Source: Chloroflexota bacterium
Lineage (GTDB): Bacteria; Chloroflexota; Anaerolineae; Aggregatilineales; Phototrophicaceae
NCBI GenBank assembly: GCA_026706445.1
Contig: JAPOYT010000090.1
Coordinates: forward strand, 1 to 51,288
Length of the DNA stretch: 51,288 bases
Direction of reading: 5' to 3'
Position numbers and translations under genes: made by a program. Positions 40,942 through 51,110 of the stretch are shown one piece after another (within the stretch, counting starts at the first letter, position 1; each line of letters starts with the position of its first letter). Below the pieces are notes generated by a model that had not been told where the DNA came from, did not search any database, and worked only from the letters and a program-made list of their open reading frames with translations.

Positions 40942-42270
40942 CTAGCATCCGTCAGCTAAGTCAGCTGGATGAATCAGCCGCCCGGCGGCGCAGCTTGCCG
41001 CGACGACTGCCGGATTCGCCAGATAAATTTCGGCATTCGGCTCGCCCATGCGCCCGCGGAAGTTCCGATTGGCGCTGCTGATGCAGACTTCGCCCGGCGC
41101 CAAAACGCCCATGTGCACGCCCATGCAGGGTCCGCAGCCGGGTGTGCCGATAGTCGCGCCGGCTTCAATCATGTCCGCAAGATAACCGGCTTCGGCCGCC
41201 TCTCGCAACACCATTGACGATGCCGGAATGACAATAAGCCGCGCCCGCAATCGCCTCCCGCGCAGAGCGTCCGCGGCGGCGGCAATATCTTCCAGACGGC
41301 CATTCGTGCAGGTGCCGATGAAACCGACATCTACTCTGGTACTCGCCACTTCGGAAAGCGGACGAACATTATCAACCGCATGGGGGTAAGAAATCATGGG
41401 TTCAATGTCGCTCAGATCAATCCGGTGCTGCGCGGCATACGCGGCGCCGGGGTCGGGATACAGCGCGCGCTCTCGAAACATCGCCAGGCGCTCCACATGG
41501 GCATGGGGACGCGTTCGCCGTAAAGTTTCGCGCAGCCACTGCCATGTCACCTCGTCCGGCGCGATGCAGGCGTTCTTGGCGCCCATTTCCGCCATCATAT
41601 TGGTCAATACAGCGCGAGAATCTGGCGACAGGTCGCGGACGCCGTCGCCGTCAAACTCTACCGCCATATAGGTCGCGCCGTCGGATGACAGCTGGCCGAT
41701 AAGGCTTATCGTCAAATCTTTGGTGGTGACTCCCGTTTTCAACTTGCCCGCGAGCGTGATGCGCATCGTCTCAGGGACACGCAGCCACAACTCGCCCGTC
41801 GCCCACAGAGCCGCCACTTCACTCCGCCCGATGCCGGCGCTGAAGGCGCCCAGCCAGCCGTAATGCGTGCTGTGGCTGTCCGCGCCCAGCAACGTCATGC
41901 CCGGTCCAATTACGCCCTCTTCACAAAGCACCTGGTGGCAGATGCCGCGCCCAACTTCAAAGAAATTCTGAACACCTTGCTCGCGCGCGAAATCTCGAAC
42001 GCGCGCGTGATTCTGCGCGTGTTTGGCGCTAGGCGGCGGAACGGCATGATCGAGCGTGATCGCCAGCCGCTGCGGATATCTGACGCGTTTATGCGGGAGC
42101 CGCTCAAATATCTCGGCGATGGCGGCTGTATTGTCGTGGCTCAGCACGACATCCGGTTCGACAATCGCGATCTCGCCGGGCGCGACACGGTCGCGTCCGC
42201 TGGCGCGCGCCAACAGCTTTTCCGTCAGCGTTTGCGCGCTCAAGGCTGCCTCAATGGCTCTAGCGGTCAT
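40942..42270 (-). CDS. lysT: Homoaconitase/3-isopropylmalate dehydratase large subunit
   Basis: 442 residues, aconitase superfamily. [4Fe-4S] ligands are Cys321 (FIGTCTNG), Cys379 and Cys382 (GCGPCMG). Other conserved sites are [31 protein letters not shown] (cited by key residues) and [12 protein letters not shown]. It forms a two-subunit enzyme with lysU. AGGGAA lies 5 nt before the ATG. The gene is separated from the main lys operon by an oppositely oriented MFS gene, so it needs its own promoter in the short divergent region 42271-42357; I could not identify one with confidence. Confidence 0.87.
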
Positions 42271-42349
42271 GCCGATTCCCTAACGCCGAAATGCCCATGA
42301 GATTCAAATCAATGCTCTTCACTTTCTCCGTACGCCCTTGGCAACTGTC

Positions 42350-42358
42350 TGCTACAAT
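42350..42358 (+). promoter_or_regulatory. Extended -10 promoter of the MFS gene
   Basis: TG, one base, TACAAT (5 of 6) at 42350-42358 forms an extended -10 element like that of pgeF. Transcription would begin near 42365, about 32 nt before ATG 42397. There is no clear -35. Confidence 0.45.
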
Positions 42359-42396
42359 TGCCGCTTGGCACGGCGCAAACCCATTCGGCGGTCCAC

Positions 42397-43683
42397 ATGT
42401 TGCCGCAAGACCTTCGCGACAAACTTCGTTACAACACGGTCGTCAATCTCTGGGACGGCAGCCTCTTTGGCTTTGGCGTCTCGGGTTTGGCATCGTATGT
42501 TACCATAATCCCGCTCTTTCTGTCCTTCCTCACCGAATCGACCGCGCTCATCGGCTTCGTAGCCACCCTCTTCCACATCGGCTGGCAAGTGCCTCAGCTG
42601 CTCACATCCAGCTATGTCGCCAGCATGCAGCGCTACAAGCCAATGGTGCTGGCGGCGACTCTGGTAGAGCGCGTGCCATACTTTGGTTTGGCGCTGCTTG
42701 CGCTAGCGATTCCCAAGATTGGCGTCGATACTGCCCTGGTCTTGGCGCTTATTTTCCTGACCCTGCAATCACTTGCCGGCGGTTTCACCGGAACCGCCTG
42801 GCAGAGCATGATCAGCAAAATCATGCCGCCGCATCGGCTCGGCTCGTTCTTTGGTATTCAGTCGGCCTGCGTCAATCTTTTTGGCGCCGGCGGCGCCTTG
42901 CTCGCCAGCTTCATACTGGAAAGGCTCGACTTTCCCCAGAGCTTCTCGCTTCTCTTTGCGCTTGCCGGCGTGAGCCTGCTTGTTTCTTTCGTGGGCTTGG
43001 CGCTGACCTACGAGCCGAAGAGCCCGCCGCAAGATGTCGCTGAGCCGATCAAATTGCGCCAATTTGGCGGATTGCTGCGGCAGATCCTGCGCGGCGACGA
43101 CAACTTCCGCTGGTTCCTCATCGCGCGCGGGCTTACCGCGGTCAGCTTGACAGCCATCTCCTTCTACACCATCTATGGCATTCGGCGCTTTGATATGTCG
43201 CCCGAATTTGTCGGCCTATTGACGAGTGTCCTGCTGGTTTCGAATACGATAAGCAGCTCGGTCATCGGCTGGATTGGCGACCGCTGGGGGCATCGGCGCG
43301 TCTTGATCGCCGCGAATGCGCTAACTGTGCTGGCGATCACAATTGCCTTGTCCGCAACGGAAGCAAGTTGGTTTTTCGCCGTCTTTGCCTTGACCGGCCT
43401 GGTCAACTCGGCGCAGTGGTCGACAATCATGACGATCACGGTGCAGTTCGGTTCAGTCGCGGAGCGTCCCTACTACATCGGCATGGCGAACACATTTATC
43501 GCGCCGGTGACGATATTCGCGCCCATCATTGGCGGCTGGCTGGTGGATGCCGTCAACTTTGAACTGACCTTCGGCCTCTTCGCGCTGGCGGGATTGCTAT
43601 CGTTTTTGGTCTATGTCATCTTAATGGATGACCCGCAAAATGAAACCGGCATCGGGAAACGAAAGGTCGCCGCCGCCGATTAA
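42397..43683 (+). CDS. Major facilitator superfamily transporter
   Basis: About 428 residues from ATG 42397 (the frame is open from a TTG at 42358). It has about twelve membrane helices; the MFS loop 8-9 signature is seen as GWIGDRWGHRRVLI, and a proline/glycine-rich helix 5-like segment lies near 150. It is the only plus-strand gene inside the lysine region: it is divergent from lysT and convergent with hcs, whose stop overlaps its own by 3-4 bases. The substrate is unknown. Placement between two halves of the lysine pathway hints at amino acid or intermediate transport, but this is only context. Confidence 0.85.
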   Translation: MLPQDLRDKLRYNTVVNLWDGSLFGFGVSGLASYVTIIPLFLSFLTESTALIGFVATLFHIGWQVPQLLTSSYVASMQRYKPMVLAATLVERVPYFGLALLALAIPKIGVDTALVLALIFLTLQSLAGGFTGTAWQSMISKIMPPHRLGSFFGIQSACVNLFGAGGALLASFILERLDFPQSFSLLFALAGVSLLVSFVGLALTYEPKSPPQDVAEPIKLRQFGGLLRQILRGDDNFRWFLIARGLTAVSLTAISFYTIYGIRRFDMSPEFVGLLTSVLLVSNTISSSVIGWIGDRWGHRRVLIAANALTVLAITIALSATEASWFFAVFALTGLVNSAQWSTIMTITVQFGSVAERPYYIGMANTFIAPVTIFAPIIGGWLVDAVNFELTFGLFALAGLLSFLVYVILMDDPQNETGIGKRKVAAAD

Positions 43684-44831
43684 TCTTCCAGCGGCAGCAT
43701 CATTTTACTGAGGATTCTGTCCACATCTTCCAACGTAATCGGTCCCTCGTCCGCCATGAGCTTAACCTGCGCCGTCGCCAGGTTGAGTACATCCTCTGGA
43801 AGTTTGAGGCCGCGGCTGGCGGCGTATTCGCGGATGGCGTTGCGCCCAACCAGGCGATGCGCCACATCAATGACACGCGACATACCGAAGTCCTCCGGCT
43901 TGATCGCCTCATAAGTCATCGGGTTCTTCAAAACGGCATTGGTATGCACGCCGGCTTTGTGATGAAAGGCGACCTCGCCCGTGATCGGCGTATTGTAGGG
44001 AATATCGATACCCAGCTTCTCGGCGACGACCCGTTCAATCTCGCGCAGCAGGCAAAGTTCGTATTTGTCCACCAGCGACTTGTCGCAGGTATAAAGACGG
44101 CCCACGAGCGCGCCCATCGGTGTAATGCCATTGCGTTCGCCGATGCCAAGCACAGTGGTGTCGATGTGGGTCGCCCCCGCTTGCAGGGCGCAGAAGGCGT
44201 TGGCTACCGCGCAGCTGCTATCGTTGTGGCCGTGAAACTCAATATCGCAGCTGACCACATCGCGCAGGTTGGAGATGAGATTGTAGGTCTGCATCGGGTC
44301 AGCAATGCCAACAGTATCGGCGACGCCGACGCGGTTCACCCCCGCCAGATCCATCGCGCGATACACCGTCATGACATCGGCGAAATTGCTGCGAAAAGTG
44401 TCCTCGGTGCTGAAGCGCGTTTCGATGCCCTGTTCATTGAGAAAGGCGATCACCTCCTGTCCAATCTCTATGACCTGCTCAAGGCTCTTGCCGTGACTGT
44501 ATTCGCGCATGTAGTCCGACGTTCCGATATATACGTCCGCGCCATCAATGCCGCAGTCTACTGCCAGCTTCGCATCGTCCATATTCGCGCGGATATGCGT
44601 CAGCAGTTTGTAACGGCGCCGCGTATCGGCCAGCGCGCGGATCGCATCGGCGCTTTGCGGACTGGCCACCGGCGTCGAAAGCTCCATATACTCCACGCCG
44701 AACTGATCCAGCAGCGCGGCGATTTCACGCTTGTCTTCAATGCTGAAATGCGTGCCGCGAAATTGTTCGCCCTCGCGCAATGTGGAATCAATGAAGTTAA
44801 ATTCGTGAATTGAGTTGTTTCGGCCGCGCAT
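43680..44831 (-). CDS. hcs: Homocitrate synthase
   Basis: 383 residues. It belongs to the DRE-TIM metallolyase family: DSTLREGEQF (15-24) supplies the acidic metal ligand and catalytic Arg19; the HGHND motif gives the two metal-binding histidines, and GVADTVGI and GERNGITPMGAL are typical of homocitrate rather than isopropylmalate synthases. FHHKAGVHTNAV is present in the C-terminal lid. It condenses 2-oxoglutarate with acetyl-CoA, the first step of the aminoadipate lysine pathway, and is usually inhibited by lysine. It lies 18 nt after lysK as the last gene of the LysW operon. Confidence 0.92.
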   Translation of the reverse strand: MRGRNNSIHEFNFIDSTLREGEQFRGTHFSIEDKREIAALLDQFGVEYMELSTPVASPQSADAIRALADTRRRYKLLTHIRANMDDAKLAVDCGIDGADVYIGTSDYMREYSHGKSLEQVIEIGQEVIAFLNEQGIETRFSTEDTFRSNFADVMTVYRAMDLAGVNRVGVADTVGIADPMQTYNLISNLRDVVSCDIEFHGHNDSSCAVANAFCALQAGATHIDTTVLGIGERNGITPMGALVGRLYTCDKSLVDKYELCLLREIERVVAEKLGIDIPYNTPITGEVAFHHKAGVHTNAVLKNPMTYEAIKPEDFGMSRVIDVAHRLVGRNAIREYAASRGLKLPEDVLNLATAQVKLMADEGPITLEDVDRILSKMMLPLED

Positions 44832-44849: not shown

Positions 44850-45902
44850 TCAGATGGTCTCAAGAACCGATGTCAATACGTCAATCGCCCGCAAGTAATC
44901 GTCGAGGTTGGTATGTTCATCGGGCGTATGATCCAGCGCCGAATCGCCCGGTCCGTATGCCACGATCGGACAGTTCCAGCGCGGTCCGACGATGTTCATA
45001 TCGGATGTTCCAGTCTTATTGACGAAGCGCGGAACGCCGCCGGAAGCGCGAATCGCGCGCCGGAACTGACGGCTTAAGGCGCTGTTTCTGTCTCCGCTGA
45101 AGGCGCATTCCGCGCCACGCGCCGTGACCCTTGCGCCATCGCCGGCGGGGAATTCGCGCGCGATTTGAGCCGGCGCTACTTTCGGCGGCAGACGAAAGCC
45201 GACCATCATCTCGGCGATGCCATTGACACCCTCTTGCCAAGTGTTGATATCGCGGATCGACGCGTCAAGGCGCGCAAACAGCGAAGCGATGCCATCATTG
45301 AAATCGTCACAGTAGGTTTCGATGTCCCGCCAATATGTCAGCGCGCGTTCGGCCGGGCTGGGCGCTTCGCCCGCGCTATGCGATAAACCGCCCTCCCAAT
45401 GCCAGTCGAGCAGCAGCCGCCCCTTATAACCCAAGGTGATGCGATCCCATTGCGACGGCTCGCCGATGACGCAAGATTCCGGCTGGTATTGGCTTAAGGC
45501 GTAATGCGCGCCGCGGCTGGTGGCCGCCTCTTCTTCCACCGCGCCAATGACGATGACTTGTAGATCCTCAGGCAGCCGGGCTCGGCACGCCGCCACCGCG
45601 AAGGCGCATAGCGGACCCTTGGCGTCGACAGCGCCGCGGCCGTAAAGCAGCCGTCCCTCCTGCCGAACCGGCGGGAAACCGGCGAAGGTATCGATATGCC
45701 CGAGCAGCACGATTTGCCGCGGGCCCGAGCCCATGATGCCGACGGCGTTGCCGGCCTCATCAACGAAGCTTTCGTCGTAGGCAAATGTCGCCATCCATGC
45801 CCTAAGGAATTCGGCGGCTTCCGACTCATGGCGCGATAGGCTGGGAATCGCCACCAGATCGCGCAGCAGTTCTTCGGCGCTGCGGTCAGATACGCTGCTC
45901 AT
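44850..45902 (-). CDS. lysK: [LysW]-lysine hydrolase
   Basis: 350 residues, M20 metallopeptidase family. Metal ligands and catalytic residues are visible: His69 and Asp71 (LLGHIDTF), Asp93 (GRGAVDAKGP), catalytic Glu123 with Glu124 (GAVEEEA), Glu148 (GEPS), and a C-terminal His in DHTPDEHTN. It releases free lysine from the C-terminal Glu of LysW in the last step of the carrier pathway; ornithine would be released in an arginine variant. It starts 3 nt after lysJ. Confidence 0.92.
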   Translation of the reverse strand: MSSVSDRSAEELLRDLVAIPSLSRHESEAAEFLRAWMATFAYDESFVDEAGNAVGIMGSGPRQIVLLGHIDTFAGFPPVRQEGRLLYGRGAVDAKGPLCAFAVAACRARLPEDLQVIVIGAVEEEAATSRGAHYALSQYQPESCVIGEPSQWDRITLGYKGRLLLDWHWEGGLSHSAGEAPSPAERALTYWRDIETYCDDFNDGIASLFARLDASIRDINTWQEGVNGIAEMMVGFRLPPKVAPAQIAREFPAGDGARVTARGAECAFSGDRNSALSRQFRRAIRASGGVPRFVNKTGTSDMNIVGPRWNCPIVAYGPGDSALDHTPDEHTNLDDYLRAIDVLTSVLETI

Positions 45903-45905
45903 CGC

Positions 45906-47072
45906 TTATCCCAATACCGCTTTAATGGCTGCTGCAATCACCGAAAGTTGCTCTCGACTAATGATTAGCGGCGGCAGCAGGCGCAGGGTATTGAGTCCGG
46001 CGGGCAGGGCGAGCGCGCCCTCTTCTTGCAGCGCCTTCAAAACGGGCGTCACACGGCCTCTCAACTCCAAGCCCACCATCAAGCCCCGTCCGCGCAGCTG
46101 GCGCACTCCGCGCAATTCAAGCCCGGCCAGCTCCTTTATGAACCACTCGCCATTCACGCGCGCCTTTTCCACCAGTCCCTCATCGCGAATTGCCGATATT
46201 GCGGCGACCGCAGCGGCGCAAGCGAGCGGATTGCCGCCGAAGGTGCTGCCGTGGGTGGCGCGCCCGATAGGACCATGAGCCTCGCGCCAGCAGACCGCGC
46301 CCATCGGCAGGCCGCCAGCGATCGCCTTGCCTACCGCTATGATGTCGGGCGCGATGCCCGCGTGTTCAAAGCCGAACCACTCGCCGGTGCGCCCGAACCC
46401 GGTTTGAATCTCGTCTATGATCAACATTGCGCCTGTCTGGTCACAACGCTCGCGCAGCGCCCCCAAATAACCGTCAGCGGCGGGATGCACGCCACCTTCG
46501 CCCTGAATGGGCTCCACGACAACGGCGGCTGTTGATTCGGTGATGGCGCCTCGCGCCGCGTCGATGTCGTTGTAAGCGACATATTCGACGGTCGGCAGCC
46601 AATCTTGAAAAGGCTTGCGGTACTTCTGCGTCCAGGTCAGCGACAGCGCCCCGGTAGTACGCCCATGGAATGAGCGCTTGGCCGCGACGATGCCATCGCG
46701 TCCCGTGAGCAGTTTCGCCACTTTCAGCGCGCCTTCGATCGCTTCGGCGCCGCTGTTGCATAAGAAAAACCGATTGAGATCGGCTGGCGTGACACTGGCG
46801 AGCAATGGGTAGAGCTCGGCCCGCCGGTCGTTGTAAAAGGATTCATGGCTCGTAATCAGCCTGGCCGCTTGCTCGCTGATCGCCGAGACGACCGCCGGAT
46901 GGCAATGCCCCAGCGCCGCCACACCCTGGCCGCTGGTGGCGTCCAGATAGCGATTGCCCAATTGGTCGAAAGCGTAAACACCTTCGCCGCGAACTAAAGC
47001 AGTCGGCCGTTTGCCGTAAGCGCCAGAACCGTAGCGATCTTCAATTTCGAACAGCGTTGCCGTTTCAATCAT
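45906..47072 (-). CDS. lysJ: [LysW]-aminoadipate semialdehyde aminotransferase
   Basis: 388 residues, class III PLP aminotransferase of the ArgD/LysJ type. The cofactor lysine is Lys249 (AVGKAIAGGLPMGA), with Asp220 (LIIDEIQTGFGRTG) contacting the PLP ring; NSGAEAIEGALK and FHGRTTGALS are present. It transfers an amino group from glutamate to the LysW-bound semialdehyde, giving LysW-lysine. Its start overlaps the lysZ stop (ATGA). Homology alone cannot distinguish it from acetylornithine aminotransferase; the operon does. Confidence 0.92.
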   Translation of the reverse strand: MIETATLFEIEDRYGSGAYGKRPTALVRGEGVYAFDQLGNRYLDATSGQGVAALGHCHPAVVSAISEQAARLITSHESFYNDRRAELYPLLASVTPADLNRFFLCNSGAEAIEGALKVAKLLTGRDGIVAAKRSFHGRTTGALSLTWTQKYRKPFQDWLPTVEYVAYNDIDAARGAITESTAAVVVEPIQGEGGVHPAADGYLGALRERCDQTGAMLIIDEIQTGFGRTGEWFGFEHAGIAPDIIAVGKAIAGGLPMGAVCWREAHGPIGRATHGSTFGGNPLACAAAVAAISAIRDEGLVEKARVNGEWFIKELAGLELRGVRQLRGRGLMVGLELRGRVTPVLKALQEEGALALPAGLNTLRLLPPLIISREQLSVIAAAIKAVLG

Positions 47073-47878
47073 GCGCTAAACCTCGTGCCAGCTCCAGCAA
47101 GCGCCCGCGACACCGGATCGTTAACTCGTCCGTCTGCAATGATGACGCGTCCTACACCCTGCGTGAGCGCCTCCTGCGCGGCGAGCACCTTTCGTTTCAT
47201 ACGACCCTGCGCCCAATCCAGCGCGCTGTTAATCCGCGTCATGGGCACTTCAGCGACTAATGAAGATTCGTCCGGGAAGCGGCGATACAGCCCGCCGACA
47301 TTGCTCAAGATGACGAGCGCTTGGGCGTCGAGAGCGCCAGCCACCGCGGCCGCCGCGCGGTCGCCATCGACATTGAGCAAACCATCGCCGCTCTGCGCCA
47401 TTGGCGGCAGCACTGGCGCCTGAGCCTGCTCGAGCGCCCGTCGCAGCAGCGCCGCGTCCACATCAGTGATGGATCCGCTGTGATCATCGCGGACGACGCG
47501 CGCGCGTCCCTTCACGACCGCGCGGATGGCCGTCTTGCGCTTGCCCAGAAGCGCCACATCTTCGCCGACGAATCCGATCGCCTTTAGCCCGCGCTCTTGC
47601 AAGGCGGATTCCACCTGCGCGTTCGCCAATTCGGCGGCGCGAACGTAAATGTCGCGCACGGCCGGCGGCGTATAACGTGAACTGTGCCCGGAAGGCGACG
47701 TAAGCGATTGCACCTCGACGCCACTCTCCAGACAGAGTCGGTTCATGATGGCGCTGACGCCGTGGACGACCACCAGCGGACGCCGCCGACCGATCGCCGC
47801 CAAATCATCGCAAGCGGCATTAAGATCCAAGCCTTCGCCGCCACCCAACTTCACCACCAGCAGTTCTCTTCCCGACAT
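47069..47878 (-). CDS. lysZ: [LysW]-aminoadipate kinase
   Basis: 269 residues, amino acid kinase family (ArgB-like). N-terminal VVKLGGGEGLD binds phosphate, VVHGVSAIMNRL replaces the usual VHGGG loop, SGHSSRYTP and GEDVALLGKRKT are characteristic of the LysW branch, and the C-terminal NVGGLYRRFPDESSLV and GRMKRKVLAAQEAL are canonical AAK sites. It phosphorylates the side-chain carboxylate of LysW-bound aminoadipate. It starts 14 nt after lysY. Confidence 0.92.
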   Translation of the reverse strand: MSGRELLVVKLGGGEGLDLNAACDDLAAIGRRRPLVVVHGVSAIMNRLCLESGVEVQSLTSPSGHSSRYTPPAVRDIYVRAAELANAQVESALQERGLKAIGFVGEDVALLGKRKTAIRAVVKGRARVVRDDHSGSITDVDAALLRRALEQAQAPVLPPMAQSGDGLLNVDGDRAAAAVAGALDAQALVILSNVGGLYRRFPDESSLVAEVPMTRINSALDWAQGRMKRKVLAAQEALTQGVGRVIIADGRVNDPVSRALAGAGTRFSA

Positions 47879-47892
47879 GACTGCGCCGCCCT

Positions 47893-48918
47893 CTAGGGAT
47901 AGATGCCGGGAAACTCGAGCCCGGCGGTTTCTTCCAGCTCGTACATGAGGTTCATCGATTGCACGGCGCTGCCGGCTGCGCCCTTGCCTAAATTGTCCAG
48001 CGCCGCGATGACGACCAGATGCTTCCCGTCGTCATCGAGCTCAAAGCCGATATCACAGAAATTTGTGCCCGCCACGACGCGCGGCTCCGGCAGGCGATGC
48101 AAGCCAACCTTGCCGCTCACCAGCCGCAGGAAGGGCTCATCGCGGTATTGCCCGCGGTAGAGCCGCCATATATCGCGTTCCACTTTGGCTTCCTTCAAAT
48201 AACAATGCGCCAGCAAATGAACGCCGCGCACCATCTCGATGGCCGTGACGGAAAAATGAATCGGAATATCTTCGCCCAATACCAACTGCGCTTCTGCCAA
48301 GTGCCTATGTCCGGTCGCTTTATAGCTGCGCACGGCGCCGCTGCGAATTGGATGATGCGATCCCGGATTGCTCTTGTTGCCGCCCTCCGATGAACCGACC
48401 TTAATCTCGATGGCGGCGCGCTCAAGCAAACCCGCCCGAACTAGCGGCAGCAGCGCAAGATTGACCGCCGTTGCGTTGCAGCCAACCCCGCTGACGTATT
48501 TCGCGCCGCGCAGGGAATCGCGATTGACTTCGGGCAAGCCATAGACGAAGCGGTAGAGCCAGCGCGGCGCCGGATGAGGCTGGCCATAGAATCGCTCGTA
48601 GGTGGCGGCGCAATCGAGGCGAAAATCGGCTGAGAGATCAATCAGCTTGTCCGCCAGATTCGCGTAATGCTCAATATTGCGCGCGACTGTGCCATGCGGC
48701 AGCGCCAGAATTAAGAGATCGCATGCTTCCAAAGCATCAGGATGAATGAACTTCAGTCGAGAGACGCCGCGCAGATTCGGATGCGCAGTGTGCGCGTAGC
48801 GCCCCGCATGTTCGCGGCTCGTGATCTGCGTCGCGTCGACCTGAGGGTGAAAGCGCAGCAGCCGCAGCAGCTCGCCGCCGGTATAACCGCTGCCGCCAAC
48901 GATGCCCGCGCGTATCAC
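47893..48918 (-). CDS. lysY: [LysW]-aminoadipyl phosphate reductase
   Basis: 341 residues, ArgC/ASADH-type NADPH-dependent reductase. The nucleotide-binding loop is GGSGYTGGE (8-16), and the catalytic cysteine is Cys147 in [17 protein letters not shown]; the C-terminal block [34 protein letters not shown] is family-typical (cited by its final [10 protein letters not shown]). It reduces the LysW-aminoadipyl phosphate to the semialdehyde. It begins with GTG overlapping the lysX stop (GTGA). Confidence 0.93.
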
Positions 48919-49793
48919 GCCACCACTCCGATTTGCCCGATGACGAAGTCAATGACTTCTTGCGCGATGTCGACGCCGGTGGGTTGGCTGCTGTTGCGAA
49001 ATTCCATCGTGTGGTTGATCTCGTTGACGACAAAATTGCCCCGCGCGTCTTCCAGCAGATCAACCGCCAGAATGCCGCCGCCGACCGCATCAGCCGCGCG
49101 CACGCAAATATCATCAAGTTCTTCGGTAACCGGGCAATTCGTCGCCAGCCCGCCCCGCGCGGTATTGGTGATCCAGTGATTGGATTCGCGGTAGATCGCG
49201 GCAATCGTGCGATCGCCTACCACGAAGGCGCGGATATCGCGTCCCGGCTTGTCAACATATTCTTGCACGTAATAGGTGTGATGATTGTAATCGCCCAAGG
49301 TCTGCCGATGCTCCAATATCGCCTCGGCGCTGTCCCGGTTGTGGACGCGCGCCAGCAGCCGGCCCCAGGAGCCGGTCACCGGTTTCAGCACGGCCGGATA
49401 CTTGACATCTTCAATCGCCTGCATCGCGCTATCCGGCGTGAAGGCGACGCGCGTATGCGGCTGCGGGATGCCCTGTTTCATGAAGGCGATGCTGGTCCGC
49501 AGTTTGTCGCTGCAGGTCGCTGCCGTCTCATAGGTGTTGAAACTGCGCAAGCCCCAGCTATTCAGGATCGCCAGCGCGTACATGCCGCGCGATGTGCTGA
49601 CGCAGCGCTCGAAGACCAGGTCGTATTCGCGCCAGGCGCTGCCAGAGGGCGCCAGCTGCTCGGCGCCGCAAGTGATATCGAAGTTCAATTCGCGATCCAG
49701 GATGATGTCCGGGCTGATGTCACGCTTGTTGAACGCGGCCAGGATCAGCTTTTCTTCCGCGCGAATATGAGTGACGAGCAGGGCGACGCGCAT
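48915..49793 (-). CDS. lysX: LysW-aminoadipate ligase
   Basis: 292 residues, RimK-like ATP-grasp enzyme. It shows the N-terminal [17 protein letters not shown], the central ATP-binding [16 protein letters not shown] and [18 protein letters not shown], the substrate-loop NTARGG, and the metal-ligand NEINHTMEF. It forms a peptide-like bond between the gamma-carboxyl of the C-terminal Glu of LysW and the amino group of alpha-aminoadipate. Glutamate-specific ArgX is very similar, and I cannot settle specificity from sequence alone. It starts 5 nt after the lysW stop. Confidence 0.93.
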
Positions 49794-49798
49794 AAGAC

Positions 49799-49975
49799 TT
49801 ATTCTCCCCAGTCTTCTTCCACCTCGGGCGCCAACTCAAGTTCAATCGGATCCAGGTTCATGATCTCAAGCTCGGTGCCGCATTCAGCGCAAGACAGCAA
49901 CTCGTTCTCCATGGCGTCGGACGGGATATCGACTTCGCCATCGCATTCCGGGCAAAGCGGCGTTTCACTGGTCAT
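49799..49975 (-). CDS. lysW: Lysine biosynthesis amino-group carrier protein LysW
   Basis: 58 residues, small and highly acidic. Two CxxC pairs (Cys8-P-E-Cys11 and Cys29-A-E-Cys32) form the N-terminal zinc ribbon, and the protein ends Glu-Asp-Trp-Gly-Glu, the hallmark of LysW; the final Glu58 carries the substrate. AGGAG lies 8 nt before the ATG. The carrier protects the amino group and presents the substrate electrostatically to the LysX, LysZ, LysY, LysJ and LysK enzymes encoded directly after it. The attenuator terminator sits 26-37 nt upstream of its start. Confidence 0.97.
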
Positions 49976-50000
49976 CGCGAATTCTCCTGTAGCAATAGCT

Positions 50001-50030
50001 CAAAACAAAAAACCCGCCGTATGGGCGGGC
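50001..50030 (-). terminator. Attenuator terminator before lysW (regions 3 and 4)
   Basis: Read on the minus strand: stem CCCGCC (50029-50024), loop CATAC (50023-50019), GGCGGG (50018-50013), then six T (50012-50007), G, and four T. This is a textbook Rho-independent terminator, oriented against lysW and placed just before it, so transcripts from the promoter at 50195-50223 must pass it to reach the lys operon. Confidence 0.9.
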
Positions 50031-50070
50031 GCCTGTTAGAGTTCTAAATCCAGCGCAAACAAGCCCATAC
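50019..50070 (-). promoter_or_regulatory. Antiterminator pairing (regions 2 and 3) of the lys attenuator
   Basis: Region 2, GTATGGGC (50070-50063, beginning right after the leader stop codon), is exactly complementary to region 3, GCCCATAC (50026-50019), which is the loop and the inner stem bases of the terminator. A second block, GCGC (50056-50053) with GCGC (50032-50029), can extend it across an internal loop. Pairing 2:3 and the terminator 3:4 share bases 50024-50026 and 50029, so they cannot coexist. Confidence 0.85.
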
Positions 50071-50094
50071 TTAGCGGGTGCGGGTCTTCTTCAC
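50057..50094 (-). promoter_or_regulatory. Anti-antiterminator helix (regions 1 and 2) over the Lys codons
   Basis: Bases of leader codons 13-17 (GTG AAG AAG ACC C, 50094-50082) can pair with region 2 and its downstream bases (GGG CTT G TTT GC, 50066-50055). The helix has C84-G64, C83-G65, C82-G66, then a bulged A, AAG with CTT, one G/G mismatch, and further A-T, G-T and G-C pairs: about eleven pairs in all. It would sequester region 2 and let the terminator form whenever ribosomes do not stall on the Lys codons. Confidence 0.7.
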
Positions 50095-50130
50095 CTTCGT
50101 GCCGCCGTTTGCACTGCCGATCGCGCTCAT
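50071..50130 (-). CDS. Lys/Arg-rich leader peptide of the lysW operon
   Basis: A 19-codon ORF reading MSAIGSANGGTKVKKTRTR, ATG at 50130 and TAA at 50071. Three Lys codons (12, 14, 15, all AAG) and two Arg codons (17, 19, both CGC) fall in its last eight residues, next to the competing RNA helices. The ribosome site is weak (only AAG-rich sequence before ATG; a GGAG lies 17 nt away), but initiation need only be modest in a leader. It starts about 58 nt after the predicted transcription start. I read it as the sensor peptide of an attenuator, not a functional protein. Confidence 0.82.
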   Translation of the reverse strand: MSAIGSANGGTKVKKTRTR

Positions 50131-50194
50131 CTTTACTTGCCAAGAATCTCCGAGTCGATCCAAGCGCTAACTTTATCGCTTGTAACGAGTTTCC

Positions 50195-50223
50195 ACTATA
50201 ATCAATTTGTACGAAAAATACAA
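50195..50223 (-). promoter_or_regulatory. Sigma70-like promoter of the lysW leader and operon
   Basis: Read on the minus strand: TTGTAT (50223-50218), a 17-nt spacer, and TATAGT (50200-50195, 5 of 6). Transcription would start near 50188, giving a leader of about 210 nt to lysW. AT-rich sequence further upstream (50224-50243) could serve as an UP element. It starts 20 nt after the stop of the kinase-like gene. Confidence 0.75.
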
Positions 50224-50243
50224 CACTCCTAACTATTCACTAA

Positions 50244-51110
50244 CTAATAACCAAATCGCGCAAGAGACTCCTTCAAAGGCGGAACGTATTTGGCGCCAAA
50301 TATGGTCAGATGTATCAGCAAGGGATACAGATTGTAGATATGGCGTCTCATTGTATAAAAGTCGTCTTCAATCGGAATCGTATTGCGGTAGGCCTGAAAG
50401 AACTCGTCCCCAGTGCCGCTGAACAAAGTCATGTAAGCCAGCTCCATTTCGTTATGCGCGTAATAGAGGGCTGGATCGAGTATGCCCGCCACCCGGCCAG
50501 CGCGGGAAATCACATTGCTTTTCCACATATCGCCGTGGATCAACACTGGCTTTTCCGGCTCGATCAGAAACTCATCCACCCGATCGGCGATGCGATTAAG
50601 CCGCTGCTCAAGCTCGGCCGGAAGTTCACCTGACGTCCGCGCGACGCCGATCATGTAAACCAGCCGCTTCTCACGGAAAAACTCGATCCAGGAGTTCATC
50701 CGCCCATTGGGCTGATGCAGCGGACCGATCAAGGTGTCGCGTTCGTGACCATAGCTCGGACCCGTCACCTGATGGCAGCGGGCGAGCAATTCGCCGAGAT
50801 GACGCAGGCTTTCGCCTTCCCACTCGATTCGCCCGTCCACGAATTCCATAAGCAGCAGGTTCGCCTCGTCGTGCAATACTTCGGGAACGGGCAAGCCGGA
50901 ATGCTCGCGCAAATAGCGGAGCATATAGGCCTCGATGCTGAGGTCGTGGCCGCCATCTCCGATTTTGGCTACGACTGATTCACCCTTGTCCAGCTCGACG
51001 CGCATAACCTGGCTGATCATGCCGCCGGCGAGAGGCTGCCAAGCCCGCGCGCGCCGCTGCAGCGCTCGCTCAATTGCTAGCTGATTCGCCCTATCCATGA
51101 TGCCGTCCAT
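50244..51110 (-). CDS. Fructosamine kinase family protein (FN3K/APH-like)
   Basis: 288 residues, protein-kinase-like phosphotransferase fold. It has LAGGMISQVMRV with VVAKIG (nucleotide-binding Lys), LLLMEFVDG at the hinge, the catalytic loop LIHGDMWKSNVI (Asp and Asn) and the metal-binding ILDPALYYAHNEMELAYM, a block typical of fructosamine-3-kinases rather than antibiotic kinases. Such enzymes phosphorylate ketosamines on glycated lysine and trigger their release. The start may instead be Met5. It lies upstream of, and on the same strand as, the lys operon, whose promoter begins 20 nt after its stop. Confidence 0.87.
   Translation of the reverse strand: MDGIMDRANQLAIERALQRRARAWQPLAGGMISQVMRVELDKGESVVAKIGDGGHDLSIEAYMLRYLREHSGLPVPEVLHDEANLLLMEFVDGRIEWEGESLRHLGELLARCHQVTGPSYGHERDTLIGPLHQPNGRMNSWIEFFREKRLVYMIGVARTSGELPAELEQRLNRIADRVDEFLIEPEKPVLIHGDMWKSNVISRAGRVAGILDPALYYAHNEMELAYMTLFSGTGDEFFQAYRNTIPIEDDFYTMRRHIYNLYPLLIHLTIFGAKYVPPLKESLARFGY

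Follow-up and report, generated by a model that had tools for sequence, protein, structure and literature searches.

How does a bacterium with LysW-type lysine genes match their transcription to its supply of lysine? The question is raised by a stretch of 51,288 nucleotides from a Chloroflexota bacterium (contig JAPOYT010000090.1), referred to below as the window, in which a sequence-only reading had proposed a ribosome-mediated transcription attenuator in the gap upstream of lysW. From the comparison of this leader with those of related genomes, and from folding of the RNA that a ribosome would leave free, we regard it as highly probable that the gap holds such an attenuator of the LysW lysine operon and that it reads the supply of charged lysine tRNA.

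The lysine operon and its leader

All the sequence parts named in that reading were found in the window, on the minus strand. The features of the leader and of the genes behind it are as follows.

50195-50223, minus strand: promoter candidate 1, TTGTAT (50223-50218), 17-nt spacer and TATAGT (50200-50195); from the sequence
50170-50175, minus strand: promoter candidate 2, the -10-like TAAAGT; from comparison of the genus leaders
50071-50130, minus strand: leader ORF of 19 codons plus TAA (ATG at 50130, stop 50073-50071), MSAIGSANGGTKVKKTRTR; from the sequence
50086-50097, minus strand: putative regulatory Lys codons 12 (50097-50095), 14 (50091-50089) and 15 (50088-50086); from sequence and conservation
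50074-50079, minus strand: region 1, ACCCGC (codons 18-19), a copy of the terminator 5' arm that complements region 4; from the own-versus-swapped test and the minimum-energy fold
50063-50070, minus strand: region 2, GTATGGGC, antiterminator 5' strand, adjoining the stop codon; from covariation and folding
50019-50026, minus strand: region 3, GCCCATAC, end of the terminator 5' arm plus loop, serving as antiterminator 3' strand; from covariation and folding
50007-50029, minus strand: intrinsic terminator, CCCGCC-CATAC-GGCGGG (50029-50013) followed by six T (50012-50007); from pairing across the genus leaders
50018-50012, minus strand: region 4, terminator 3' arm
49984-49988, minus strand: AGGAG, likely ribosome-binding site of lysW, beyond the terminator; from the sequence
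49799-49975, minus strand: lysW, amino-group carrier protein, first controlled gene (NCBIfam NF041070 E 2e-19 and TIGR01206 E 1e-12, both slightly below cut-offs)
48915-49793, minus strand: lysX (TIGR02144 above cut-off)
47893-48918, minus strand: argC-type reductase, lysY (TIGR01850 above cut-off)
47069-47878, minus strand: lysZ kinase (NF010659 above cut-off)
45906-47072, minus strand: lysJ/argD-type aminotransferase (TIGR00707 above cut-off; NF042418 LysJ has the best E-value, below its cut-off)
44850-45902, minus strand: lysK hydrolase (NF003367 above cut-off)
43680-44831, minus strand: homocitrate synthase, last of the gene run (TIGR02146 E 8e-124, 0.25 bits below cut-off)

From lysW to the homocitrate synthase gene, neighbours on the minus strand overlap or lie at most 18 bases apart, and the leader gap is bounded on its upstream side by a kinase-like gene (50244-51110) on the same strand as lysW. 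Within window 40942-43683, a gene for an MFS transporter on the opposite strand lies between the homocitrate synthase gene and a homoaconitase large-subunit gene, so the homoaconitase gene is probably outside the attenuated transcript.

The promoter hexamers of the sequence-only reading, with their 17-nt spacer, are present, but they are not the best-conserved hexamers of this region: counted by eye, an exact TAAAGT occurs in 16 of 25 genus leaders against 8 of 25 for an exact TATAGT. Two boxes 5' of the leader, TTTTCGTACAA and GCGATAAAGT, are conserved in much of the genus (window 50163-50223, minus strand), and an inverted repeat, TTGTA-N7-TACAA, spans the window's -35 region. Judged by their sequence, the conserved boxes may be either tandem promoters or an operator.

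Conservation, pairing and the position of the ribosome

Taken alone, the window argues only weakly against a chance assembly, and at the sequence level it is the comparison across genomes that is decisive. Region 3 (GCCCATAC) is complementary to region 2 (GTATGGGC) over 8 bases, just as had been claimed. By itself this is mildly unusual, an equally long complement occurring in 34 of 2000 dinucleotide shuffles of the leader, and the stability of the whole-leader fold is not in excess of chance (z -1.03; 29/200 shuffles as good). The same order of parts, with leader ORF and pairing both kept, stands upstream of lysW in 25 of the 25 genus genomes searched, the window's own included, so that the reading passed this check in relatives. 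The genus leader peptides mostly end in SKK[AV]KKTxT[HR] or a near variant.

For wider comparison we used loci from one LysX scan of named genomes (L031-L110), the best 80 of 279 confirmed loci, among which near relatives are over-represented and the window's own record is absent. All but L071 and L089 are titled Chloroflexi/Chloroflexota, Anaerolineae or names within these. Of the 31 genus loci in this set of the best 80, at least 22 coincide with L002-L025; a further 39 loci were placed in the rest of the family according to their LysX identity (63-85%) and their position in the tree. A detector requiring at least three Lys within 7 codons, a terminator and, close to the stop codon, an antiterminator was positive at 71 of these 80 loci, compared with 1 of 1200 shuffles. 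When any other residue took the place of Lys, 0 to 12 of the best 80 of 279 were called, the highest counts being Ser with 12, where Ser belongs to the SKK motif, and Arg with 10. Among the 41 related genomes, the LysX match was strong (E < 1e-80) in 33 and weak in 4 others.

Some loci of this sample deserve separate mention. L071 (JAPUDW010000219.1, titled Bacteroidetes) and L089 (JAHHHY010000006.1, titled Pleurocapsa minor) are typical Anaerolineae lysW loci with tandem leaders and are placed inside Anaerolineae on the LysX tree; these records are probably mislabelled or contaminated bins. L040 / L013 has about 90 extra bases between terminator and lysW relative to its closest sister loci (terminator at -157 versus -64). 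In the more distant Anaerolineae L107, L108 and L109, the terminators before lysW are preceded by short ORFs with KRRK, KR..KR or KRIKK rather than KKxKK (L107 and L108 read by eye); they may represent diverged lysine leaders, which the detector overlooked or scored in an unexpected way.

The pairing between regions 2 and 3 (2:3) was followed through an alignment (A2) of 64 of the 72 first-unit leaders (L001 and the 71); L063, L068, L090, L093, L094, L101, L102 and L109 were left out as differently spaced, as second units or as coming from outside the family. Standard pairs occupied 91.4% of the 2:3 cells, while slid controls gave 17-47%, and 67 cells were changed on both sides against a shuffle mean of 22.1, with 0 of 500 shuffles as high. 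One pair alone occurs as AU in 22 leaders, CG in 21, UG in 9, UA in 6 and GC in 4. Neither the count of pairs showing any two-sided change (4) nor that of further pair types (15) exceeded the shuffles (248/500 and 150/500), because the shuffle preserves the make-up of the columns. The partners range over GTATGGGC/GCCCATAC, GTCCGGGC/GCCCGGAC, CCTTTCGGGC/GCCCGAAAGG and TGAGTGCGGGC/GCCCGCACTCA, and each leader's own region 2 with its own region 3 beat swapped partners (0/2000 permutations as good). The terminator stem is unbroken in the genus, with 100% of cells paired in 25 leaders. As in the leader-peptide attenuator class, there is an antiterminator that excludes the terminator and that carries compensatory changes.

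Region 1 had to be moved. The sequence-only reading had put it over the Lys codons, but the upstream complement of region 2 sits on the last two codons before the stop (18-19). A hairpin between regions 1 and 2 (1:2) is pairable in 99% of genus cells. It had no covariation in the genus, and its own partners did no better than swapped ones (446/2000 permutations as good in 64 leaders, 581/2000 in the 31 leaders outside the genus), so that as a protector hairpin it is not supported. In the minimum-energy fold of the window, the last codons, ACCCGC, pair with the 3' arm of the terminator (1:4). This 1:4 pairing passed the same test among the 31 family leaders outside the genus (0/2000 permutations as good); within the genus the test is uninformative (2000/2000 permutations), since the terminator arm is invariant there. 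With 1:4 supported beside 2:3, the antiterminator probably has two parts, region 2 taking the end of the terminator 5' arm and the loop, and region 1 taking the 3' arm. Of the proposed mutual exclusion of three helices, the exclusion between 2:3 and 3:4 is therefore upheld by covariation and by the ribosome-position folding described below, but the 1:2 hairpin, lacking covariation, is not.

We then modelled the folding of the RNA that a ribosome leaves uncovered, taking its leading edge, as is usual, to be 13 nt away from the A-site codon's first base. For the full-length RNA of the window, an A-site on Lys12, Lys14 or Lys15 gave the antiterminator with P of 0.997, 0.997 and 0.92, and one on Thr16 with P of 0.27; an A-site on Arg17, Thr18, Arg19 or the stop gave the terminator with P of 0.97 to 0.996 (0.99 on Arg17, 0.97 on Arg19 and 0.97 at the stop). 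When the RNA extended only to region 3, which is as far as polymerase would have come when the decision falls, the P of 2:3 was 0.99 through Thr16, 0.85 on Arg17 and 0.50 on Thr18, and it fell to 0 on Arg19 and at the stop. By both measures the Lys codons of the window are thus predicted to lie on the read-through side, and Arg17 is predicted on the other side by the full-length measure only. A switch point just 3' of the Lys codons, which would leave them on its read-through side, is a directly testable prediction. The earlier proposal, that stalling on codon 12, 14 or 15 would free region 2 and block termination, held in these models (P of the antiterminator 0.92-0.997). The ribosome-free RNA of the window folds as antiterminator (P 0.99).

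The same folding was applied to the relatives. At full-length equilibrium with the ribosome at the stop, the terminator was favoured in all leaders (31/31 genus, 37/37 other family, 23/23 second units of tandem leaders). Its P was also above 0.5 for a ribosome on the first Lys in 3/31, 18/37 and 19/23 of these groups, respectively, and for one on the last Lys in 18/31, 23/37 and 23/23. In such leaders, where the equilibrium favours the terminator even with a ribosome on the Lys codons, the modelled switch has to be kinetic. With RNA only to region 3, 2:3 exceeded P 0.5 in 28/31 genus leaders, 37/37 other family leaders and 20/23 second units when the ribosome was on the last Lys, and in 0/31, 4/37 and 0/23 when it was at the stop. 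For the second units, the terminator wins in most ribosome states at equilibrium and the switch appears only in this shorter, co-transcriptional fold. Codons placed so that a stalled ribosome frees region 2 and a ribosome at the stop masks it were found in the window and, before arm 4 is present, in most leaders; at full-length equilibrium, only part of the leaders have this placement.

The spacing agrees with a role for the Lys codons. The last Lys codon lies 18-20 nt from region 2 in 51 of 71 first units (loci among the best 80 of 279), and 17-18 nt from it in four leaders whose stop comes just 6 nt past that codon, while the stop itself lies 6 to 39 nt past the last Lys across leaders. The distance to region 2 that has been kept is that of the Lys codon rather than that of the stop.

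Lysine codons, target genes and tandem leaders

In the 64 aligned leaders, Lys stands at the four positions of KKxKK in 61, 63, 64 and 64 cases. In the window the first of these is Thr, i.e. one Lys codon has been lost, and the short upstream ORF retains several codons for the end product of the pathway (Lys12, 14 and 15). Its Arg positions are not kept, being Asp, Asn, Gly, Cys, His and others in sister genomes. Modelled folding alone would not fully separate Lys from Arg17, but the conservation of the codons does.

We searched 98 whole genomes of the family with covariance models of the first unit (R1) and the second unit (R2). R1 matched in 80 of the genomes, at 87 places (E <= 0.001): 80 lie upstream of lysX and 7 immediately before homocitrate synthase. 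The 34 places that belong to the window's genus are all found a few hundred bases 5' of lysX; outside the genus there are 53, with 46 within 1200 bases upstream of lysX and 7 on other contigs. Behind those 7, the gene scored above the TIGR02146 cut-off in 7/7, and homoaconitase came next in both that were tested. These copies before homocitrate synthase are L151-L157 (G378, G391, G383, G369, G365, G379, G390), with a unit-2 match in 4/7. Among the matches listed for the 98 genomes, R1 was found before no other gene. Eighteen of the 98 genomes were without R1, 11 of them without a LysX match better than 1e-13 and 7 with one. A scan of the window's whole genome with R1 gave no second match.

A lysine riboswitch (RF00168) was found in 0 of 41 relatives under Infernal with stricter filters, the control being found in 4 of 14 genomes. 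When 49700-50400 was scanned against Rfam with E values up to 5 admitted, the sole match was sR28, far below threshold, and neither a lysine riboswitch nor a T-box appeared; we rejected both as candidates for this leader. We likewise rejected arginine as the main signal, the Arg codons not being conserved and ArgJ being encoded elsewhere in the window's genome, which gives arginine a route of its own, with the folding equivocal at Arg17. Given the 41 genomes without a lysine riboswitch and the location of ArgJ, the LysW cluster is, on its sequence, best read as lysine-specific, and the leader supports a role of the cluster in lysine rather than arginine synthesis. Arginine synthesis makes no use of homocitrate synthase. 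The window's genome also has a homologue of lysA (diaminopimelate decarboxylase) at G000:C21:19992-21188, with one TAA in the matched span. Its presence beside the LysW cluster possibly means two lysine routes or a decaying gene, and it may represent a second lysine source.

In many relatives the leader is double. A first unit like that of the window is followed by a second Lys-rich ORF, typically ...SKKKQSKKPxxRSG with its region 2, TCTGGAT, overlapping the ORF end, and by a second terminator. The second model match begins 38 to 99 nt past the end of the first in 36 of the 53 R1 places outside the genus. R2 matched in 32 of the 98 family genomes, at 36 places (32 preceding lysX, 4 preceding homocitrate synthase), and in 0 of 34 genomes of the window's genus. 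The window itself has no second unit: its terminator stops 31 bases short of lysW. In an alignment (A3) of 22 of the 23 second units, L057 omitted, 88.1% of the 2:3 cells were paired and 12 were changed on both sides, versus 3.4 in shuffles (0/500 as high).

Among the best 80 of 279 loci, two units were called at 23 by the first detector and at 26 by a relaxed one, which found any unit in 4 of 1450 shuffles and two units in none. By the relaxed detector, the 31 genus loci all have exactly one unit; the 39 loci of the rest of the family have two in 25 cases, one in 13 and none in 1; and the other 10 loci have none in 7, one in 2 and two in 1. The wider comparison drew on a phylum sample of 301 genomes, from which 40 LysX places were taken together with the order relatives; L111 was dropped as a copy of L061, and L119, L131, L158 and L173 had fewer than 1501 bases. 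In other families of the order, two units occur in 8/10 loci of f3 and 7/7 of f8 (together 15/17), 0/6 of f7 and 0/4 of f2; their paired sequences are quite different and similarly spaced, for example CGAGTGGT/GCCACTCG and CGGCGATT/AATCGCCG. Two units were found in 1 of 16 loci from other orders of the class and 0 of 20 from other classes, with none in L177, a divergent family member. The tandem leaders are located upstream of lysW at L060-L099 (many), L128, L129, L030, L127 and L158-L170.

On a LysX tree rooted at its midpoint, the label of one or two units needs about ten changes. L057 and L061, the nearest to the window's genus, carry both units, and double leaders occur throughout the family, so the sequences seem most simply read as a loss of the second unit by the window's genus. 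At least 7 of the 98 family genomes also have the leader in front of a separate operon for homocitrate synthase, which points to a small lysine regulon. Altogether, we think it likely, with less confidence than for the attenuator itself, that much of the order controls such a regulon through two Lys-codon attenuators in series and that the window's genus has reverted to one. If so, two switches in series for one signal would multiply, sharpening the response and lowering leakage, and the single-switch genus and its tandem relatives would form a natural before-and-after pair on the value of doubling.

Proposed mechanism, its rivals and known systems

In the mechanism that we propose, the ribosome would trail RNA polymerase through the leader. 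When Lys-tRNA is short, it would stall on Lys codon 12, 14 or 15, with its leading edge 5 to 14 nt short of region 2. GTATGGGC, left free, would pair with GCCCATAC before the second arm of the terminator is transcribed, and ACCCGC, when free, would aid by pairing with that second arm, so that polymerase could read through into lysW-lysX-argC-lysZ-lysJ-lysK-hcs. With plentiful lysine, the ribosome would reach the stop codon and cover region 2, and the terminator would form.

A different source of stalling would be the leader peptide itself, its conserved basic SKKxKKTxT[HR] tail arresting the ribosome or slowing release in the manner of TnaC, perhaps in response to another ligand. The near invariance of KKxKK would suit it, as would the constant gap of four residues between the last Lys and the stop at the 31 genus loci. 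In the family and order at large, however, everything but the Lys codons varies, the residue after KK being T, P, N, R, Q, H, C, I or another; the stop wanders over 6 to 39 nt past the last Lys, yet the distance from Lys to region 2 is mostly kept; and the peptide of the second unit differs, sharing the Lys runs alone. We consider peptide arrest very unlikely. Even less likely, in our judgement, is an element that senses arginine, or arginine together with lysine. LysW pathways can make both amino acids, the window's peptide ends in TRTR with Arg codons at 17 and 19, a ribosome on Arg17 permits the antiterminator in the co-transcriptional fold (P 0.85), and Arg-rich units were called at 10 of the best 80 of 279 loci. 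Yet these Arg codons are replaced in sister genomes, the full-length fold terminates on Arg17 (P 0.99) and Arg19 (0.97), the latter also in the shorter fold, ArgJ is encoded elsewhere in the genome, and the extra copies of the leader precede homocitrate synthase.

A terminator with an alternative pairing is common to all classes of such leaders, so the same architecture might be controlled by a riboswitch, a T-box or an RNA-binding protein, with the ORF incidental. We find this scarcely credible: the Lys codons of the ORF are among the best-kept parts, the Rfam scan of 49700-50400 yielded sR28 alone, far below threshold, and the lysine riboswitch was found in 0/41 relatives against 4/14 for the control. 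As for a chance assembly of the upstream gene's terminator, a spurious small ORF and a short complement, the window by itself would allow it, given the 34 of 2000 shuffles with such a complement and the ordinary fold stability, but the comparison refutes it through the 25/25 conservation, the covariation and the 87/87 model matches at lysine genes, and its probability is practically negligible. The lysine-reading attenuator remains our explanation of the locus. It would be the likely lysine-sensing mechanism of a large, mostly uncultured group, the Anaerolineae, in which no lysine riboswitch was found (0/41); the isolate names of many named relatives presumably point to sponge, reactor and groundwater samples. 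The leaders (R1, R2) could serve as an Rfam family and as a marker of lysine genes in metagenomes.

The trp, his, thr and ilv attenuators of Proteobacteria are the textbook cases of leader-peptide attenuation. With them the window shares an ORF of cognate codons, a terminator and an antiterminator that would be freed by a stalled ribosome and masked at the stop; the amino acid here is lysine. A 1:2 protector or pause hairpin is present in the trp and his types, whereas in the window it is unsupported, region 1 instead copying the terminator 5' arm and pairing with region 4. Ribosome-free trp and his leaders are not known to be antiterminated, in contrast to the ribosome-free RNA of the window, which is predicted to be. 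A close likeness is a leader-peptide attenuator of the Thermus thermophilus lysine gene cluster, reportedly described by Tsubouchi and co-workers (Tsubouchi et al. 2005), in which an ORF with Lys codons and a terminator are said to precede a LysW-type lysine cluster. The likeness consists of these two parts, and the host of the window differs in phylum; we know of no tandem units in the Thermus lysine leader. With the lysine riboswitch (RF00168), which had no match in the 41 genomes, the common ground is lysine-responsive control in a leader.

In the open-licence literature of PubMed Central, we found no report of lysine or tandem leader attenuators like these, and within that literature the suggestion that the architecture may be undescribed in a LysW operon outside Thermus is fair for Chloroflexota. 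A survey of Actinobacteria, which have trp, ilv and leu leaders of the same scheme, reports that lysine operons there are not preceded by any conserved RNA structure (PMC1262725). Another survey, of premature terminators, notes a tandem one in the leader of rimP, and the word lysine is absent from its main text (PMC2965389). In the Salmonella mgtCBR leader, two short ORFs answer to different signals, ATP and proline, with additive effect (PMC3641672). The tandem leaders of the Chloroflexota relatives resemble the mgtCBR case in that a single leader contains two short ORFs under separate attenuation control, but differ in that the two units both carry Lys codons and have terminators of their own; the window is single-unit. 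Relative to the open-licence literature, where it was not found, the tandem, same-amino-acid form in the relatives would be new, a rare and perhaps the first series of two attenuators reading one amino acid. The window's own element very probably belongs to the known class of leader-peptide attenuators, perhaps with a variant antiterminator.
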